Positions 27,689 to 36,565 of a stretch of DNA of 64,000 nucleotides are shown in pieces. Numbering within the stretch: position 1 is the first letter of the stretch; every line of letters begins with the position of its first letter. The DNA lies in NCBI RefSeq assembly GCF_000331735.1, contig NC_020126.1, positions 5,350,501 to 5,414,500 of the forward strand. The letters run 5' to 3'. The translations under genes were made by a program, and so were the position numbers. The DNA is from Myxococcus stipitatus DSM 14675 (lineage in GTDB: Bacteria; Myxococcota; Myxococcia; Myxococcales; Myxococcaceae). The notes below the pieces were generated by a model, which saw nothing but the letters and a program-made list of their open reading frames with translations, was not told where the DNA came from and did not search any database.

Positions 27689-27735
27689 GCGCGGTGCCCG
27701 GCAAGCAGGCGACGGTGGGAAGCAAGAGGGCGCGG

Positions 27736-29475
27736 ATGACTCTAGGCAACAGGCTGGCGAGCGGTTCGAGGGTGGCAATCGTCGGAGGCGGCATCGCGGG
27801 GGCGGGACTGGCGGCCTCCCTTCTCTTCAATGGTCGAGCGCGTGGGCTGACGCTGGACGTTCGCGTCTATGCCGGAGGGCTGTCGGAGCGGACCTCGCCT
27901 CCCGTCGTGCTCACCCCCGAGTGCCGCTCGCGGCTGGCGGCGCTCGGGTGCCGCATCCCCCCTGAATGGCGCACGCACGAGCTGCGCGGCGTCGAGATCA
28001 TCGCCGAGGGCCGGCGCGAGCTCCTCCCCTCCTCTCCTGGCGGCATGTGGCTCGTTGATGGCTGGCCCTCCGGTGAGGGAGGACTGGCGCAGGTGCGCGG
28101 CATCCTCGCCAACGCCGCCAGCGCGCAGGGGGCTCGGTTCGTCGAGCGACATGTCGACCGGGTGGAGCGCCAGCCTCCCGCGCCAGATGCTCCCGTCGCC
28201 GTGCGAGGCACCGGGCCCATGGTGGTCCGTGCCCAGGGAAGCGGTGAGCGCTATCACGCGGTCGCCCTCGCGTGCGGCGCGGGTCCACTCCTAGGGGACG
28301 CCTTCTTCCCCGGGTTCCGCCCTGCCCCCACCATGCCCGCCGTCCAGGCGCGGCTGCGGCATGCGTCCTCGCGGCTGGAGATTGCCCCCGTCGCGAGGCT
28401 CTGGGTGGCGCCGCTGCCGACGGTCGATGGCCTGTTCCTCCTGCCCGGCGTGGACTCCGTCTACGCGCTGGCCTTCGGTCCCGCGGTGACTCCCGCGGAC
28501 CTGTGTCAGGCGCTGATGATGGCGGCCCGCGATGGCCTGCTGAGCGAGGGGTTCGAGCTGGCCGCGCTCGAGACCACGCGGCTTCCCTATGGCCCGGGCC
28601 GCACGCTCGTGGCTCCGGGACAGCTCGCGGTGGGGCCCGCGGCCTTCGGGCACCCCCTCCAGCTTGGACTGTCGGAGACGCTCGCCTCGTGCAGTCGCGC
28701 GGCGGTGGCGCTCCTGGATGGAGGACTGGACGCTCCCGCCCTGGAGCGCCGCTACGTCCGCGAGGGCCTTTGTGAGCTGATGGAGGACGCCGCCGCCGGA
28801 GCACGCTCGGTGGCGTGGATGCGCCGTGCCGGCAAGCGCGCGCCCGCGGCCTTCCTCGCGGCGAAGGGCCGGCGCACGTCGCTGGGCATCTATGGCGGCG
28901 GAGTCCTGGGGCTCAGCGCGCCCACGCCCCTGGCGTTACTGGGTGCGGTGCGCTGGGCGGGGCTGCGCGAGGTGGTGAGCGCCTGGCTTCGGACGACGGT
29001 GGACCCGGTGCCCATGGCGGTGCCGGACCTGGAGCCCGACCTGTACTACGTCGTGGATGACGACCCCGATGCTCGCGAGGCGCTGACGGCGCTCCTGGAG
29101 AGCACGGGCGCCAAGGTGGTGTCGTTCGCGGACGAACTGGCGCTGTTCTGCGCGGTTGCTCGCAGGCCGCCCACGGCCATCCTCCTCGACGTCGTGCTGC
29201 ATTGGGTGGATGGGCTCCGGCTCTGCGAGGGCTTGAAGCAACACCCCCTGACGCGTGGCACCCGGGTGGTGGTGATGAGCGGACTGAACCGGCCCCATGT
29301 CCGCCAGCGGGCGCTGGACGCGGGGGCGGAGGCCTTCCTGCCCAAGCCCGTGGACCCGGAGCGGCTGCTGCGCATCCTCACCGGACGCATGCCCGCGCCG
29401 AGCACGCCCGCGGACCCCACCTCTCCGCGACTGTCGGGTGATGCCAGCACGTCGGACCGCTACGCGGCGTCCTGA
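27736..29475 (+). CDS. FAD-dependent oxidoreductase fused to a C-terminal receiver domain
   Basis: 579 aa. Residues ~10-430 resemble flavin oxidoreductase/monooxygenase-type proteins: Rossmann VAIVGGGIAGAGLAAS at the N-terminus and a later GPAAFGHPLQLGLSET, near the usual FAD-ribityl position. Residues ~435-550 are a receiver: acidic triplet in YVVDDDPDARE, Asp in AILLDVVL, Lys in FLPKPVDPE. ATG 27736 has GAGGG upstream; a GTG 42 bases earlier is weaker. It follows the GGDEF gene by 47 bases. The fusion is unusual; substrate unknown. Confidence 0.8.
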   Translation: MTLGNRLASGSRVAIVGGGIAGAGLAASLLFNGRARGLTLDVRVYAGGLSERTSPPVVLTPECRSRLAALGCRIPPEWRTHELRGVEIIAEGRRELLPSSPGGMWLVDGWPSGEGGLAQVRGILANAASAQGARFVERHVDRVERQPPAPDAPVAVRGTGPMVVRAQGSGERYHAVALACGAGPLLGDAFFPGFRPAPTMPAVQARLRHASSRLEIAPVARLWVAPLPTVDGLFLLPGVDSVYALAFGPAVTPADLCQALMMAARDGLLSEGFELAALETTRLPYGPGRTLVAPGQLAVGPAAFGHPLQLGLSETLASCSRAAVALLDGGLDAPALERRYVREGLCELMEDAAAGARSVAWMRRAGKRAPAAFLAAKGRRTSLGIYGGGVLGLSAPTPLALLGAVRWAGLREVVSAWLRTTVDPVPMAVPDLEPDLYYVVDDDPDAREALTALLESTGAKVVSFADELALFCAVARRPPTAILLDVVLHWVDGLRLCEGLKQHPLTRGTRVVVMSGLNRPHVRQRALDAGAEAFLPKPVDPERLLRILTGRMPAPSTPADPTSPRLSGDASTSDRYAAS

Positions 29476-30243: not shown

Positions 30244-31161
30244 TCAGCCGTGGGGGCGCTCGAGCACCGCGTCATAGGGCGGCGCCACGAACACCGCTCC
30301 CGCCTCCTTGCGAAACCAGGTGAGCTGGCGCTTGGCGTATCGCCGCGTCTCCTGGGCTGTGTCTCGAATGGCCTCGTCCACGGACATGCGCTCCTCCACC
30401 ACCGCGCGCGCCTGTACGTAGCCCACGCTTCGCATCGGCGCCGCGTCCGCGTATCCCCGCGCCAGCAGAGCCCGCGTCTCCTCGACCAACCCCGACGCGA
30501 ACATGGCCTCCGTGCGCGCGTTGATGCGGGCGTAGAGCACGTCGCGAGGCGGCTCCAGCACGAAGAGCCGGAAGGGATATCGGTCCGCGGAGAAGGCATG
30601 GGCCTTGTGGAACTCCGAGGCTGGGACGCCCGTCCGCGCATGAATCTCGAGCGCGCGAATCACTCGGACCAGGTCCTGGGCGTGCAACCGCGCGGCGGTC
30701 ACCGGGTCCACCTGCGCCAGTCGACGGTGCACGGCCTCACGTCCTTGCTCCGCCGCGAGTGCCTCCAACTCCGCGCGCAGCTCCGGCAAGGCCCCGGGCG
30801 CATCCACCACGCCGTGCAGGAGGATGCGCAGGTACAGGCCCGTGCCGCCCACGACGATGACGGGCCGGCCTCGGCGAGTGATGTCCTCGATGACGGCATC
30901 CGCGCGGCGTTGGAACTCGGCCGCCGAGAAGGTCTCCAGCGGGTCCACCTCCGACACGAGGTGGTGCGGCGCCGCAGCCAACTCCTCCGAGGAAGGCTTC
31001 GCGGTGGCGATGTCGAAGTGGCGGTACACCTGCTGCGAGTCCGCGCTGACGATTTCACCGCCCACGCGACGCGCCAGCTCGATGGCCAGGGCCGTCTTCC
31101 CCGACGCCGTCGGCCCGGCCACCACCGTCAATGTCGGCCGTCCCTCCTGTCCTTCACCCAT
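30244..31161 (-). CDS. miaA: tRNA dimethylallyltransferase
   Basis: Adds a dimethylallyl group to A37 of tRNAs that read UNN codons. 305 aa. P-loop VVAGPTASGKTALA, then SADSQQVYRHFDIATAKP (substrate loop), VVGGTGLYLRILLHG, and the basic C-terminal TRRYAKRQLTWFR. ATG 31161 overlaps the stop of the HPr-kinase-like gene by 8 bases, so it is the last gene of the peptide-modification operon described upstream, probably by read-through rather than shared function. Confidence 0.95.
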   Translation of the reverse strand: MGEGQEGRPTLTVVAGPTASGKTALAIELARRVGGEIVSADSQQVYRHFDIATAKPSSEELAAAPHHLVSEVDPLETFSAAEFQRRADAVIEDITRRGRPVIVVGGTGLYLRILLHGVVDAPGALPELRAELEALAAEQGREAVHRRLAQVDPVTAARLHAQDLVRVIRALEIHARTGVPASEFHKAHAFSADRYPFRLFVLEPPRDVLYARINARTEAMFASGLVEETRALLARGYADAAPMRSVGYVQARAVVEERMSVDEAIRDTAQETRRYAKRQLTWFRKEAGAVFVAPPYDAVLERPHG

Positions 31162-31969
31162 GCTCCGCTGCTCCCAGGGCTGTTCGCACCTCGGCCACCG
31201 CCGAGGCGTCCCGAGCAAACACCAACCGCGCCGGCGCCACCTCCGACAACAGCCGGCCCGCGGAGGCGAGCATCGCCGAACGCCCCGCCCCCGAGGACTC
31301 GCACAGCAGGACGTTCTGCACCAGCACCCGGCCCACCTCCCCGGCCCCGGGTCGCTCCCAACGGGAGCTCGAGTCCCAGCCCAGGACACCCACCGCGCGC
31401 AGCCGCGCCTCGCGAGGGAACCCCACGTTCCACGGCGTGCCGGCCACTCTCCAGGCACGCGGCGCGGGCCCCCGTGGATCCTCGGGCCATACCGCCACCA
31501 GCTCATCCGAGAGCAAGGCCTCGCCCGCGGCCGTCCACAGTCCGCCCAGCGTGCTCTTCCCAGCACCCGAGTGCCCCGTGAACAGCGCCGCCTCCTCGCC
31601 GTGCATCAGCGCCACGCCATGCACCAGCAGCCCATCTCGGCGGCGAAGCTCCGCGGCGAGCATCACCCGCAACACCACCTCCACGGGGAATCGGCCAGCG
31701 CCCACCACCTCGCCGCGCAGACCATCCGCCTCGAGTCGCGCGGAATAGTCCTCCCCTTCCAGCACGAGCGCGCCATCCTCCGCGCGCCAGGGTCGAGGAA
31801 TCTCGCGCGTCGCGGGCTCGGGGTGGACCACCGAGGGAGCCACCACCTCCAGCACCGAGGCGCGGACACCCGGCGGAGGCCGAGGCGTGATGAAGCCCGC
31901 GAGTGACCGACGAAGCAGCGCCTGGACGCGGGCGTCCGGCACCTGGAGCCCCACGGTCCATCCCGCCAT
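31154..31969 (-). CDS. HPr kinase-related P-loop protein
   Basis: 271 aa from ATG 31969; the true start may lie up to 100 bases upstream, because the ribosome site is weak. P-loop in LFTGHSGAGKSTLGG, then LLSDELVAVWPE, which matches the acidic region after the Walker A of HPr(Ser) kinase. Before the P-loop, LVHGVALMHGEEAALF is the usual lead-in strand. Lacks the HPr kinase N-terminal domain, like the HprK-related kinases found with PqqD proteins and with lasso peptide clusters, some of which phosphorylate the precursor. Lies directly after a small peptide gene. Confidence 0.8.
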   Translation of the reverse strand: MAGWTVGLQVPDARVQALLRRSLAGFITPRPPPGVRASVLEVVAPSVVHPEPATREIPRPWRAEDGALVLEGEDYSARLEADGLRGEVVGAGRFPVEVVLRVMLAAELRRRDGLLVHGVALMHGEEAALFTGHSGAGKSTLGGLWTAAGEALLSDELVAVWPEDPRGPAPRAWRVAGTPWNVGFPREARLRAVGVLGWDSSSRWERPGAGEVGRVLVQNVLLCESSGAGRSAMLASAGRLLSEVAPARLVFARDASAVAEVRTALGAAEHG

Positions 31970-32055
31970 CGTGAGCCAGGGGCCCGACGGCTCGGAGGAA
32001 CCTCCGTCGGGGCCACCAGCCCCCCGGGAACCGGACGAACCGGCACCCGGAGGAC

Positions 32056-32238
32056 TCAGGGCGTGCACTCCGACTCGCCCGGGATGTTGCACTGCGACAT
32101 CATCGCGAGCGCGACGAAGGGCTGCTCCCACAGGATGGCCGGTGCCTCATAGCGAGGCGCCCCTGCCGGGTGTTCCTCTCGCGAGCCCTCCGCCGTGGGT
32201 GACCGGGAGGATGTCGGAGTCGAAGAAGTTCGGGTCAT
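32056..32238 (-). CDS. 60-aa peptide, candidate RiPP precursor
   Basis: The N-terminal 28 residues are Ser/Thr/Pro/Arg-rich. The middle RYEAPAILWEQPF (residues ~29-41) fits the Y-x-x-P-x-I/L...F leader motif that PqqD/B1-type chaperones bind in lasso precursors. The tail FVALAMMSQCNIPGESECTP has two Cys (50 and 58), Ser and Thr. ATG overlaps the stop of the beta-propeller gene (ATGA). No signal peptide. No similarity to a known protein that I recognise. Role as modified-peptide precursor is inferred from the leader motif and the adjacent chaperone and kinase genes. Confidence 0.7.
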   Translation of the reverse strand: MTRTSSTPTSSRSPTAEGSREEHPAGAPRYEAPAILWEQPFVALAMMSQCNIPGESECTP

Positions 32239-35200
32239 GGGAACGGTACCGGGAAGGAGCAGATGAAGCCGTCCTCGGAGCCCACGTGCAGCCGGGAGGA
32301 GGTGGTGTCGATGGTCGGCGTGCCGATGCGCAGGCCGCTGCTCAGCGACACCTGCGCCGAGTCCGCGCCGCCCACCATCTCGAGCTGATGCACCTTTCCG
32401 TCCCCCCCGCCGACGTAGATGCGGACCACGCCGTTGCGGTTGAGGGTGAAGGTGCCGGAGGGATTCGGGACGGGCGTCGACCACTGGCGCGTGGGCATCG
32501 CGGCCCCAGGCGCCGAGTAGTCCCAGAACTCCACATGGCCACTCGCGAGGCTGGCCACGAAGCCGCCGCCCAGCGGACGCACGAAGCTGGTGAACGCGGG
32601 CGTGCTCGGCGCGGGCCGGGTCGCCACGTTCAGGCTCCACGCCACCTGGCGGGTGACCGCGTCGACGGCGTGGACCACGCCATCGCTGTTGGTCGCGAGG
32701 ACATGCCCCGTCACACCGTTGCGAACCAGGCTGTGCTCCAGGTCCCCGAGCGCCAGCCGAGCCACCTCGGCGCCGGTGAGCGTGTTCAGGACGCGGAGAG
32801 AGTCCGCCGACACGCCATTCACCTTCGCGCCGATGAACAGCAGGTTGTTGACGTAGTCCACCACCATGCCGCCGTTGACCATGCCCAGGTCCCCGGGCTG
32901 GTACGTGAAGACAGGGGTCCCCGTCCTCGCGTTGAGCGCCACCACCCGGTTGGCCGCCGGGTTCGCCAGGCGCGTCGCGAAGAAGACGAGGTCCAGGTTC
33001 GGACGCGCGGCCTGGTAGGCGGCATTCGCGTAGTCATGCAACTGCGTGACGGGGAAGGACTGGATGGTGCCGACAGGCGTGCCGTTGTTGTTCCACCGCC
33101 ACAGCACCGCCCCCGTCGTGGCGCTGATGGCATAGGCCACGCCGTCCTGGTCCGCGGTGAGGATGTACTGGCCCGTCAGTCCGCGCAGCGGCACCACCGG
33201 GAACCGGCTGCCGATGGGAGCGCCCAGCTGCAGCGGACGCCACCGCTCCGCGCCATCGGTCGCGGGATTCGAGACCTGGGTGAGGTTGGCGACGACGGTA
33301 TTGTTGAAGGAGCTGAAGATGCCCACGCCCAGCTCCGTGATGGGCTGGAGGCGCGCATCCAGGCCCACGGAGTAGCACCAGAGCGGCGCGGCCCCCACGC
33401 GGGCGCGCGGCGTCGCCTTGAGCGCCGCGGACGTGGGCTGGTTGCCCGCCGAGTAGAAGCCCGCGTCGTCCGAGTTGAACACCCGGTAGTAGTACGTCGT
33501 GCCGTTGGTGACGGCGCTGTCGACGAAGGTGGACGTGCTGGTGAACGTCTCGGAGAGGACGACCGTCGCATTGCCCAATGTCGAGCCCTGGGCATACGTC
33601 CGTCCGGCGACGGGCACGGTGTTGGGTGCGCTGCCCGTGGCACGCAGGACCAGCACGCCGTTGTGCGAGGCGGGATTGTCCCACGCCAGCGACACGCTCC
33701 CGTCCCGGGCCACCGCCGTGAGCCGCGCGACCTCCGGCGCCACGCCACCCGCCGCGAGCGTCACGGGCGCCTCGATGCGCGCCGCGGATTGGGACTCGTA
33801 CGCATCCGGGATGTGCATCCGATGGCGGAACGTGGTGGGCGCCGTGACGGCCGAGACGCTCGAGTACGTCACCTCGAAGCTGCGCTCCTGGTTCACCCCG
33901 ATGGGCTGCCCGTTGGCGACCGTCCAGGTGAAGCTCGCGGTGTTGCTGGTGACCGACCAGCCCCCCGCCGAGGCGGGACTCCCCGTGGCGAACCGGAAGT
34001 AGTTCGTCGCGGGCCGCAGCAGCGTGACCTGGTAGAGGGGCTGACTCCCACGATTCTGGACTGTGTAGAGGACCGTCTGGTTCGCGAGGCCCGGCACCAG
34101 CACGGACGGGCTCACCTTGAGGCGATGGGCCACGATGCGGCCCTGCCCCGTGCGCACGAGCGGCGTGGAGACGACCGCGCCATCCAGGCTCGCGTCCGCC
34201 CTCACATCGAAGGCATAGCTGGAGAACTCAGCGCCCGTCACCGTGTAGTGCCAGACGAAATGAGCGGAGGCGCCCGGCGCCAGTCGCGTCGCGGTCGCCG
34301 GCTGAGGCCCTTGCGTCAACGTGGCCTGGGCCGAGCCCACGAGGACCGGAGCCCTGGGCGCCACGTCGAGATACGACGCCGTGGCGGACGTGTTGGTGAC
34401 GCTCAGCCGCACCCTCACGGCTTCTCCCGTGAAGAGCTGGGTCGAGTCGACGTCGGCGGCAGCGGCCAGCGGGCCCACGTTCACCATCGCCGTGTCGACC
34501 ACGCTCGAGGTCACCGAGCCGCCCGTGTTCGTGGCGCGAACACTGGCCACCATGGTCCCGTCAGTTTCCACCGTCGCTCTCGCCGCCAGGATGCCCGCGC
34601 CTCTCAGCGGAAGGCTCACCCGGAAGTTCGTGGGCTCGAGCTCGACCACCTCGAACGTGACGTCACCCGCGCCGGTGCTGGGCCCCTCCGCGGTGATGTT
34701 GGCCTGGGCGCTCGACTGCCCCGTGCGGTTCTCGATGACCAGGCGCGCGATGAAGTCCTCGCCCACGGGAAGGGCTCGCGGCTGGAGGGAGACCTGCGTG
34801 GACAGGCCCGCGCGCAGCCACTGCGCCACGGTGCTCGTCCGGTTCGTGCCGAAGGTGCCATTCCAGCTGCACTGCTCGTTCGCCTCGAGCCGCGAGAACA
34901 CCTGCCCCGTGGCGTTCTGGTTCGACACCGACGGAATCATCCGGAGCGTGAACGTCTCGGTCGCGTTCGTCCCCAGTCCGACAGCGGGGCCCGAGCAGTT
35001 GAGGCTCGGGATGTAGTAGTACCTCACCTGCCGCAGCGTCGTGTACTGCTCGGCCGCCCAACCCGGCGGCGGCGGACTCTCGAGCAGCGTGTAGCCACTC
35101 GGGAGCTGGAACAGCACGTCGTTGATGGGCCTGAAGCTCGGCGAGGAGCTCGACGTGTTGTTGCGGACCTGGACCCGCAACTCCGAGGCCTCATCCATCG

Positions 35201-35354
35201 TCACCGTGGCCTGCGTCTCCCCCGGCCTCGTGAGGGTGGAGAAGACGGCGGTGCGGTTCATCGTCGTCTGGGCCATCACCGTCGACGGCAGGGCCAGGGC
35301 GGCGAGGAGCACCGCGAGGCGGGCATTCACGGGTGTCATCGAAGCGGGCCTCAC
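32235..35354 (-). CDS. Large secreted PQQ-like beta-propeller protein
   Basis: 1039 aa. Signal peptide (ARLAVLLAALALPSTVMAQ). Residues ~30-560 are tandem Ig-like/CARDB or DUF11 beta-sandwich units; ~570-640 look like a fibronectin III unit (VSLAWDNPASHNGVLVL). The C-terminal ~400 residues are PQQ-type propeller blades such as GVAYAISATTGAVLWRW, VVALNARTGTPVFTY and VVHAVDAVTRQVAWSL. GTG 35354 has GGAG seven bases upstream; ATG 35339 is the alternative. 'PQQ-like' describes the fold, not cofactor binding. Surface or periplasmic adhesion/sensing is plausible. Confidence 0.8.
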   Translation of the reverse strand: MRPASMTPVNARLAVLLAALALPSTVMAQTTMNRTAVFSTLTRPGETQATVTMDEASELRVQVRNNTSSSSPSFRPINDVLFQLPSGYTLLESPPPPGWAAEQYTTLRQVRYYYIPSLNCSGPAVGLGTNATETFTLRMIPSVSNQNATGQVFSRLEANEQCSWNGTFGTNRTSTVAQWLRAGLSTQVSLQPRALPVGEDFIARLVIENRTGQSSAQANITAEGPSTGAGDVTFEVVELEPTNFRVSLPLRGAGILAARATVETDGTMVASVRATNTGGSVTSSVVDTAMVNVGPLAAAADVDSTQLFTGEAVRVRLSVTNTSATASYLDVAPRAPVLVGSAQATLTQGPQPATATRLAPGASAHFVWHYTVTGAEFSSYAFDVRADASLDGAVVSTPLVRTGQGRIVAHRLKVSPSVLVPGLANQTVLYTVQNRGSQPLYQVTLLRPATNYFRFATGSPASAGGWSVTSNTASFTWTVANGQPIGVNQERSFEVTYSSVSAVTAPTTFRHRMHIPDAYESQSAARIEAPVTLAAGGVAPEVARLTAVARDGSVSLAWDNPASHNGVLVLRATGSAPNTVPVAGRTYAQGSTLGNATVVLSETFTSTSTFVDSAVTNGTTYYYRVFNSDDAGFYSAGNQPTSAALKATPRARVGAAPLWCYSVGLDARLQPITELGVGIFSSFNNTVVANLTQVSNPATDGAERWRPLQLGAPIGSRFPVVPLRGLTGQYILTADQDGVAYAISATTGAVLWRWNNNGTPVGTIQSFPVTQLHDYANAAYQAARPNLDLVFFATRLANPAANRVVALNARTGTPVFTYQPGDLGMVNGGMVVDYVNNLLFIGAKVNGVSADSLRVLNTLTGAEVARLALGDLEHSLVRNGVTGHVLATNSDGVVHAVDAVTRQVAWSLNVATRPAPSTPAFTSFVRPLGGGFVASLASGHVEFWDYSAPGAAMPTRQWSTPVPNPSGTFTLNRNGVVRIYVGGGDGKVHQLEMVGGADSAQVSLSSGLRIGTPTIDTTSSRLHVGSEDGFICSFPVPFP

Positions 35355-35355
35355 G

Positions 35356-35865
35356 TCACGGCTCCAGGGTGAAGGAGGCCGTGGTCAACGGCGCCCCATC
35401 GAGGAAGAAGCGCACGCTCCACGTCCCGCTCATGATGGACGTGGCGACCGTCGTTCCGGCCACGGGCATGGAGAAGCGCAGCGTCTTCGCCGCATCCGGC
35501 TTCCCCACCACGACCGAGGAGCGCCGCTGGTAGGGATGTCCCTCTGGAGACACGAACTCCGCCTCCACGGTGCGCTTGCCGGAGACGCCGCTGACCGTCA
35601 GGTCCACGTCCACCTGGGACACGTCCGACAGCCCCCGCGAGGCCAGCCCCACCACTTCGGCCTGCCCCATCGGCCGAGGCACTTCGACCTCCGCGTCCTC
35701 TTCCCAGGACGGCGGGCGGGCCACTTCGGTCCCCTCGCCCAGCACGTCCGTCGGAGCCACGGGCGTGACTTCGCCAGGGCCTTCCCCACCCTTGGGCGGA
35801 TGAGTGCCCTCCGTACACGCCGACAGCAGCAGCGCCGCCACGAAGCCCGCTCTGCGCGCTCGCAT
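35356..35865 (-). CDS. Lipoprotein, 169 aa
   Basis: Lipobox LLLSAC at residues ~13-18 after a basic start. A Pro/Glu-rich linker (20-70) precedes a beta-rich domain with SGTWSVRFFLDGAPLTT near the end. AGGAGG stands seven bases before ATG 35865, which overlaps the PqqD stop (TGATG). Only one base separates it from the propeller gene. Likely partner of that secreted protein. Family not recognised. Confidence 0.75.
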   Translation of the reverse strand: MRARRAGFVAALLLSACTEGTHPPKGGEGPGEVTPVAPTDVLGEGTEVARPPSWEEDAEVEVPRPMGQAEVVGLASRGLSDVSQVDVDLTVSGVSGKRTVEAEFVSPEGHPYQRRSSVVVGKPDAAKTLRFSMPVAGTTVATSIMSGTWSVRFFLDGAPLTTASFTLEP

Positions 35866-36161
35866 CACCGTACCTCCTGAAGCTCGTCGATGAGGCCCAG
35901 CCGGGCCAACTCCGAAAGAAATCGCAGCGTGTCCGTGAGCGACCGAGCCACGTCCATGGAGAACTCGCGGGCCACGACCTCCGCCACCGAGCGCGCCGAA
36001 CGTGTCCCGTCACTGAGCTCCCAGACCCGCATCGCCGTCGCGTTGAGGCCCCGCAGCGTGCGGCCCTCCGCGTCCAGCAAGATGAAGTCCGCGCCGAAAC
36101 GCTCCCCCTCCGCGCCCGCGCGACGACGGGGAACACTCTCCGCGCCGAAGCCGCCACTCAT
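35865..36161 (-). CDS. PqqD-family peptide chaperone
   Basis: 98 aa, winged-helix PqqD fold: FGADFILLDAEGRTLRGLNA, then AMRVWELSDGTRS and VAREFSMDV, ending in FLSELARLGLIDE. PqqD-like proteins bind the leader of a precursor peptide and hand it to a modifying enzyme. No pqqA, B, C or E genes are here, so PQQ synthesis is not implied. ATG 36161 overlaps the peptidase stop (ATGA). Confidence 0.85.
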   Translation of the reverse strand: MSGGFGAESVPRRRAGAEGERFGADFILLDAEGRTLRGLNATAMRVWELSDGTRSARSVAEVVAREFSMDVARSLTDTLRFLSELARLGLIDELQEVR

Positions 36162-36565
36162 GGGCACCCTCCCCGTCCCAACCACCGAGCCACCCGGCCC
36201 CGCACCCACGCGCGGACACGGCCCACCGTCGAGGGCCCCCGGTCCCACTCCGCGCCCAGCTCCACGCGGCCTCTCCGGACCCGCAGCACCGTCCCGAGGA
36301 TGCGCGAAGCGGCAATCGGAGGATCCCCCGCGGGGGCATTGTCGCCACGCAGGGACAGCACGCCCGAACGCAGGTCCTGGACCCGGTGAAGCACCAGCGC
36401 GTCGTCGAACCGCGCCAGCACCACCTCTCCAGGCCGAGGCTCCCGCGTCAGCGGCGCCACTCCCGCGAGGTCCCCAGCCCGCAGCGACGGCCACATGCTG
36501 TCTCCCCGTACGGGAATCCAGCGCAAGGCCGAAGGCGACGCGGTGGGGAGGGACTCACTGGACAT
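36158..36565 (-). CDS. Soluble S24/S26 signal-peptidase-like serine protease
   Basis: 135 aa. VRGDSMWPSL holds the catalytic Ser of the GxSM box; PGEVVLARFDDALVLHRV gives a His at the position used by SipW/ER-type signal peptidases in place of Lys, and SLRGDNAPAGD gives an Asp region. There is no N-terminal membrane anchor, unlike true signal peptidases. First gene of the peptide-modification operon. Might cleave the leader of the small peptide. ATG 36565 is chosen; an upstream start adds eight residues. Confidence 0.78.
   Translation of the reverse strand: MSSESLPTASPSALRWIPVRGDSMWPSLRAGDLAGVAPLTREPRPGEVVLARFDDALVLHRVQDLRSGVLSLRGDNAPAGDPPIAASRILGTVLRVRRGRVELGAEWDRGPSTVGRVRAWVRGRVARWLGRGGCP

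Follow-up and report, generated by a model that had tools for sequence, protein, structure and literature searches.

A candidate RiPP-like phosphopeptide pathway encoded between hisS and miaA in Myxococcus stipitatus

Background

What is made from a 60-codon frame lying between the genes for a secreted propeller protein and a putative kinase in Myxococcus stipitatus DSM 14675? The frame belongs to a run of six minus-strand genes, placed head to tail between hisS and miaA at positions 36565-31154 of the DNA that we analyzed (the window: 64,000 nucleotides of contig NC_020126.1, part of a complete 10.35 Mb genome). An earlier note had proposed here an undescribed system of the kind that produces ribosomally synthesized and post-translationally modified peptides (RiPPs). 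With a probability of roughly 0.7, we propose that the genes encode a RiPP-like phosphopeptide pathway acting through a PqqD-family protein, an HprK-like kinase and a serine peptidase. It would resemble that of the linear polyphosphorylated peptides (LPPs), Bacillota RiPPs with genes lppAKBSDN (Popov et al. 2026, PMC13381572).

In the proposed pathway PqqD, a discrete RiPP recognition element (RRE), would grip Y30-x-x-P33 of the 60-residue precursor and present it both to the kinase and to the S24/S26-type peptidase. The kinase would put one or more phosphates on Ser48, position +3 of the core, and the peptidase would cut after A43-L44-A45, leaving a linear phosphopeptide of 15 residues whose two conserved cysteines may be joined in a disulfide. 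Because a lipoprotein and the secreted beta-propeller protein are co-inherited with this machinery, the product probably acts with them in the cell envelope. We infer PqqD binding, phosphorylation and cleavage from their direct precedent in LPPs (PMC13381572); the disulfide, the export route and the propeller partnership are likewise conjectured. The surface or envelope display already suggested in the earlier note is what the neighboring lipoprotein and secreted protein would point to.

Conservation of the 60-codon frame

In 25 of 27 same-genus sequences (loci and genomes carry our handles, L and G) the start codon of the peptide overlaps the stop codon of the propeller gene (NTGA), and in L048 and L060 it follows directly after that stop. 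Over 351 pairs of these sequences, the last 31 codons have a mean nonsynonymous difference (pN) of 0.059 against a synonymous difference (pS) of 0.328, while the N-terminal part drifts (mean pN 0.46, pS 0.54). Since the start is tied to the propeller stop and the tail is under purifying selection, the frame is a real gene and not a chance one. The 60-residue peptide of the earlier note is indeed carried by all 26 same-genus relatives, and a hidden Markov model (HMM) of it matches 27 of 27 same-genus genomes. Loss of the peptide beside retained PqqD and kinase genes, which the note considered fatal to its reading, was not seen: with each genome represented by one match, the top 29 kinase matches other than the query itself all adjoin PqqD and all keep the peptide. 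The synteny and conserved core that it proposed to look for among myxobacterial genomes were both found, and homologues also have a leader motif in common.

That motif was counted in 57 peptides of this type (class 1; 37 distinct tails), from the 58 loci given. The collecting pattern fixed the leader positions Y/W, P, I/V, W and F/L and none from -3 onwards. From Tyr30 the consensus reads YExPAILWEQPFVALA / QxSxCxIPGESECxP, where the slash marks the predicted cut. Ala occupies -3 in 54 peptides (Pro in 2, Gly in 1) and -1 likewise in 54 (Thr in 2, Gly in 1). An A-x-A box of this sort is a common preference of signal-peptidase-type enzymes. Position +3 is Ser in 54 peptides, Thr in 2 and Val in 1, and exactly two cysteines are found in 56 of the 57 cores. 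The core is near-fixed within the genus, and no class-1 peptide has a C-terminal Ser.

LPP precursors carry the motif YxxPxVLxHQxIxFETxxS and are cut after T, ahead of +1; the leader is docked by a discrete RRE, LppB, and removed by a signal peptidase I (SpI)-like peptidase, LppS, and the Ser at +3 is polyphosphorylated by the HprK-like kinase LppK (PMC13381572). Residues Y1, P4, V/I6, L7, Q10 and S19 of this motif recur here at equal spacing, and in both kinds of precursor the residue preceding the cut is small. A search of the PDB with the peptide profile gave no match up to E = 10, so that the LPP register rests on the motif as printed in that report.

Recognition element, kinase and peptidase

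The PqqD protein is the single PF05402 match in the genome, and no match to it was found among plasmids. Residues N40 and D77 are invariant in 30 of 30 sequences and align with N33 and D70 of LppB (residues 51 and 88 of chain 9x8z_B), with a spacing of 37 in both proteins; in LppB these residues hold the Pro region and the Tyr of the leader (PMC13381572). Membership of PF05402 is shared with the PqqD of pyrroloquinoline quinone (PQQ) biosynthesis, but the protein scores 21.8 bits against a cut-off of 46 for TIGR03859, and no radical S-adenosylmethionine (SAM) partner occurs among the locus genes.

Against the PDB, the PqqD profile finds the lasso-peptide RRE TbiB1 (5v1u) best, at 4.6e-7, and LppB (9x8z) second, at 1.1e-6. 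Might the peptide then be a lasso-peptide relative whose B2 protease and cyclase are encoded at other genomic sites? YxxP is the motif of lasso B1 proteins, and paeninodin-type phosphorylated lasso peptides resemble this system: a discrete B1/RRE reads their [Y/W]xxP leader, and HprK-like kinases tailor them (PMC9266682). Against this, and as the earlier note had stated, the locus holds no lasso cyclase, B2 protease or radical SAM enzyme. The genome has one weak match to the transglutaminase-like B2 family (PF13471, Transglut_core3), some 3.7 Mb away; no asparagine-synthetase-like cyclase is present among the locus genes, the rest of the genome not having been searched for one. A ring-closing acidic residue is expected at lasso core positions 7-9, and these read I-P-G here. 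Compared with paeninodin-type systems, the kinase has Asp-Glu in place of Asp-Asp, and the C-terminal Ser is absent. We consider a lasso relative very improbable.

For the kinase, Pfam gives P-loop matches below threshold only. An AlphaFold2 model (pLDDT 87.7) nevertheless has a predicted HprK/PEPCK fold: PEPCK and HprK chains are its best Foldseek matches (1.1e-5 and 2.1e-5; query TM 0.48 and 0.31), and VIA-align superposes it on PEPCK 2pc9_C over 241 aligned residues (Z 14.3, root mean square deviation 4.7). The HPr-kinase-like protein of the earlier note is supported by the model. H150, K171, D188 and E189 are invariant in the 24 sequences aligned, out of 27 prepared; L041 and L047, in which the shared start was not found, and the longer L056 were left out. 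The HPr-rel-A system (TIGR04352/TIGR04353) also combines an HprK-related kinase with a PqqD-family chaperone, but our locus lies far below its curated cut-offs, with 26 of 200 and 15.1 of 35 bits.

In the peptidase, S23, H60, D75 and D81 are invariant in 26 of 26 sequences. It matches the archaeal-type signal peptidase I model TIGR02228 (2.9e-6) below cut-off and also resembles LexA/CI-type S24 domains; in PHROGs the peptidase alone gave matches, to S24 repressors. A different use for the same proteins can be imagined, to which the S24 resemblance would lend itself: PqqD, kinase and peptidase may form a cytoplasmic switch in which an unexported peptide, once phosphorylated or cleaved, regulates how the propeller protein is made or exported. 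A near-fixed core, stable inheritance, a single PqqD in the genome and the lack of an exporter among the locus genes would all suit such a switch. We hold it to be unlikely, however: none of the six proteins carries a DNA-binding Pfam domain (although the RRE fold is itself winged-helix-like), the two conserved cysteines suggest an oxidizing, extracytoplasmic destination, and leader cleavage has its precedent in LPPs (PMC13381572).

The lipoprotein and the secreted propeller protein

In the lipoprotein announced in the earlier note, the lipobox cysteine (Cys17) does not vary among the 14 sequences aligned; no Pfam or NCBIfam family is reached above cut-off. The secreted protein was modeled by AlphaFold2 with a pLDDT of 81.7 and a predicted TM score (pTM) of 0.63. 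Foldseek relates the model to BamB (8orr, 7.8e-12, TMt 0.68) and to the immunoglobulin (Ig)-like domains of PrgB (8beg, 3.8e-13, TM just 0.11/0.17). Since its top rows are ciliary proteins with TM scores of about 0.1, we take the BamB-like propeller alone as a clear match; the long all-beta region is tentatively interpreted as an Ig/E-set-like array.

A secreted propeller protein stands beside the peptide in 50 of 50 class-1 loci counted, and this recurring partnership suggests a role at the cell surface rather than that of an antibiotic. One might also imagine that the peptide is the source of a redox cofactor for the PQQ_2-type propeller, as PqqA is for PQQ: PqqD, a small peptide and such a propeller share one operon, and a radical SAM/SPASM gene is present at L124, a distant class-1 locus. 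Yet none of the six genes encodes a radical SAM protein, the Glu-x-x-x-Tyr carried by PqqA is absent from the peptide, the propeller resembles BamB, and the propeller-type repeats of the five neighbors examined in a related branch (class 2a, below) are FG-GAP. A cofactor precursor is, in our estimation, extremely improbable.

How far the locus resembles LPP clusters

With LPP clusters this locus has in common a putatively SpI-like serine peptidase, a discrete RRE, an HprK-like kinase and a YxxP precursor, as well as the in-register leader Y, P, V/I, L and Q, the Ser at +3 and the Asn and Asp of the RRE. LPP clusters further contain a nucleoside triphosphate (NTP) transferase and an MsbA-like exporter, whereas here we find a lipoprotein and a secreted propeller protein. 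The LPP cut follows FET, while ours would follow an AxA box. LPPs are gained and lost in a patchy fashion, and the present genes form a stable, vertically inherited hisS-miaA locus in Myxococcota. The locus would work like an LPP cluster, but we do not file it as a member, because NTP transferase and exporter, listed as conserved in PMC13381572, are absent, and because peptidase and precursor motif agree with those of LPPs in part only.

Several observations weigh against an LPP-like pathway. No NTP transferase occurs among the locus genes, and the four NTP_transf_5 matches in the genome lie about 1.6 Mb off or further; no MsbA-like exporter was found among the six genes, hisS, miaA and a DUF308 gene, genes further out not having been scanned. 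LPP C termini are highly variable, whereas the core is short and near-fixed here, with two cysteines. Two parts of the LPP motif go unmatched, His and FET, with Glu and VALA in their place. Since LppB and a lasso RRE score alike as matches to PqqD, we do not take the likeness to LPPs as descent. The peptidase (27.2 bits against TIGR02228, cut-off 51.85) and the kinase (4.5e-6 against TIGR04352, HprK_rel_A) both remain below curated NCBIfam cut-offs. Lasso kinases have and need His-Lys-Asp-Asp (PMC9266682), so that E189 in the D188-E189 pair is a difference. Thr stands at +3 in two distant class-1 peptides (L124, L126), although LppK did not phosphorylate an S3T variant (PMC13381572), and the L059 peptide has Val at +3, with Ser at +1 and +4. 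Finally, L059 and L120 lack an adjacent peptidase, and L122 and L123 have no kinase beside the peptide.

The core idea of the earlier note, a RiPP-like system using PqqD, a kinase and an unusual protease, has stood; its word "undescribed" has stood in part only, since SpI-like peptidase, RRE, HprK-like kinase and YxxP precursor were published together in 2026 for Bacillota LPPs (PMC13381572). That report calls LPPs restricted to Bacillota and the peptidase set "predominantly" Bacillota, and its main text has no word beginning with "Myxo". No published account of the Myxococcota systems was found in the literature searched, coverage of which excluded most subscription journals.

If our reading is correct, the range of kinase-plus-signal-peptidase RiPPs is wider than the single phylum claimed for them. 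This matters because the nearest described family is reported as confined to Bacillota, and because the present version is stably inherited. A compact locus, holding the sole PqqD of the genome in a genetically tractable group (Myxococcus), would open the biological role of such phosphopeptides to study by deletion, and the 60-codon gene now has a predicted modified residue, Ser48, and a predicted cut site, after Ala45.

Organization of the locus

Frames and translations confirm the six genes claimed in the earlier note, and the Pfam matches in Table 1 bear out its peptidase, PqqD and propeller. Its five tightly linked genes are recovered as well, with four close junctions: ATGA overlaps between peptidase and PqqD (36161-36158) and between propeller and peptide (32238-32235), a TGATG with a single common base at 35865 between PqqD and lipoprotein, and a 1-base gap between lipoprotein and propeller (35356/35354). 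Starting at GTG 32068, the kinase gene overlaps the peptide gene by 13 nt; this start lies inside the peptide gene in 24 of 27 same-genus sequences (it was not found for L041, L047 and L057), a conservation to be read with the fact that the same bases belong to conserved peptide codons. At its 3' end the kinase gene, stop codon included, runs 8 nt into miaA (ATG at 31161), and 138 nt separate the end of hisS from the peptidase start. By their spacing, the gene junctions look as expected for translational coupling. Between 30000 and 38300 no sigma-70-like promoter was found, and a single terminator-like site, against 1.8 in shuffles.

Table 1. Features of the hisS-miaA locus in window coordinates, and loci assigned to the class 2 branches
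Feature	Position	Strand	Basis or remarks
S24/S26-type serine peptidase, soluble, 135 aa	36158..36565	-	Pfam Peptidase_S24 5.8e-11; putative leader peptidase
PqqD-family RiPP recognition element, 98 aa	35865..36161	-	Pfam PqqD 4.2e-11
Lipoprotein, 169 aa from ATG 35865	35356..35865	-	Lipobox Cys17
Secreted protein, 1039 aa	32235..35354	-	Signal peptide, beta-domain array, C-terminal PQQ_2 propeller (Pfam 1.4e-7)
Precursor peptide, 60 aa	32056..32238	-	Same-genus conservation, purifying selection, HMM matches
Predicted leader, residues 1-45	32104..32238	-	Variable N-terminus, Y30-x-x-P33 docking motif, A43-L44-A45 box
Predicted core, residues 46-60 (MMSQCNIPGESECTP)	32059..32103	-	Ser48 = +3, Cys50, Cys58
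HprK-like kinase, 304 aa from GTG 32068	31154..32068	-	TIGR04352 below cut-off, predicted fold
Class 2a loci, shared motif			L062, L063, L064, L133, L134, L135, L138, L141, L153, L157, L188-L191
Class 2a loci, differing motif			L065, L067, L144, L154, L168, L170
Class 2b loci			L137, L142, L143, L145, L146, L149, L151, L159, L164, L167, L172, L140

Distribution of class-1 loci

The same gene order is found in all 26 same-genus relatives, with hisS and miaA enclosing the complete set of six in 23 and contig ends truncating the locus in the remaining 3. Taking all class-1 loci counted, the six genes stand in order in 46 of 50: the window itself, 23 of 26 in the same genus, 2 of 3 among L055, L058 and L059, 15 of 15 in L173-L187 and 5 of 5 in L128-L132. 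Three of the other four are cut by contig ends, and the last is L059, mentioned above. These 50 loci come from 50 of the 56 genomes with an accepted peptide match (below). In the other six (seven loci, L120-L126) the set is incomplete or differently arranged: L125 has all six genes, reordered, and the rest retain three to five.

Of 195 Myxococcota genomes, 57 are matched by the peptide HMM; they represent 13 of 90 genera. We judged one match (L127 in G184) to be due to chance and dropped it, which leaves 56 genomes and 12 genera. Most of the named records in which the locus occurs belong to Myxococcus, Pyxidicoccus and Corallococcus. One record, BNCN01000013.1 (L083), is labeled Comamonas sp. 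KCTC 72670 and yet contains a Myxococcus-type locus; the label is probably wrong. In G129 (L132, 7545-10575) the propeller gene is split over three overlapping frames, which indicates a frameshift or mis-assembly; its five neighboring frames give matches. Locus L124 (8920-11247) has a class-1-like peptide, YEAPAVAWEEDFEPAG / QVTGC. After it come genes for a kinase, a radical SAM/SPASM protein and PqqD, and the locus is a possible link between class 1 and the other branches.

Related kinase loci in Myxococcota

The kinase profile has matches in 121 of the 195 Myxococcota genomes. We scanned 52 further kinase loci, 51 of which were long enough (L166 was dropped as too short). A first, loose precursor scan was uninformative, with frames at 41 of 51 loci on the same strand and 30 of 51 on the opposite one. 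With a strict pattern requiring YxxP and Cys, 32 of 51 loci show a same-strand frame within the 1 kb upstream of the kinase gene; written after the loose scan, the pattern is partly circular, but both controls are zero, with no such frame on the opposite strand in any of 51 loci and none in an interval further upstream in any of 47. No such frame is present in 19 of 51 loci, among them L155 in G149, where a class-1-type kinase has neither PqqD nor peptide nearby and the peptide, PqqD and peptidase of that genome lie on another contig.

The 32 loci fall into two groups. Twenty have a very long upstream frame of 1337-2989 codons, and in 14 of these the precursor has a core motif like Y-x-x-P-x-V-R-S-E (class 2a; Table 1). 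Five of the long-frame proteins (L062-L065 and L067, 1273-2342 aa) were examined and have Ig-like domains, with FG-GAP repeats towards the C-terminus, above Pfam cut-offs. Class 2a loci combine a YxxP precursor containing Cys with an HprK-like kinase; PqqD is usually present as well, and in many cases an S24 peptidase. Genomes G020, G033, G036, G108, G115 and G145 carry such a locus in addition to class 1. Might an LPP-type machine have been turned into a fixed, vertically inherited envelope component, delivering a phosphorylated disulfide peptide to one dedicated propeller protein? As the same machine is accompanied in class 2a by giant Ig and FG-GAP proteins, "phosphopeptide plus surface propeller" would then be a general and so far undescribed principle in Myxococcota. 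We offer this as a speculation that has some chance of being right but is doubtful.

The other 12 loci (class 2b) usually have PqqD and often an S24 peptidase, though in L164 both matches are on the opposite strand. A radical SAM-type frame with CxxxCxxC lies within 2.5 kb in 11 of 12, L143 having too little sequence; PF04055 was detected in 4 of 5 frames tested, the frame chosen in L164 being the negative one. Their precursors end in Gly-Ser in 11 of 12 and in Ser-Ser in L140. Where readable, the kinase motif is Asp-Asp in class 2b (9 of 9, 3 unread) and Asp-Glu in the long-frame group (14 of 14, 6 unread). Paeninodin-type kinases are known to act on a C-terminal Ser (PMC9266682), and class 2b loci are candidate radical SAM RiPPs with a phosphorylated C-terminal Ser. 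Given these differences in precursor end and kinase motif, the residue modified by the kinase may differ between branches.

Elsewhere in the window, a plus-strand frame of 593 aa (27694-29475) has an N-terminus that reads as FAD-dependent oxidoreductase-like and is apparently fused to a response-regulator receiver-like C-terminus.

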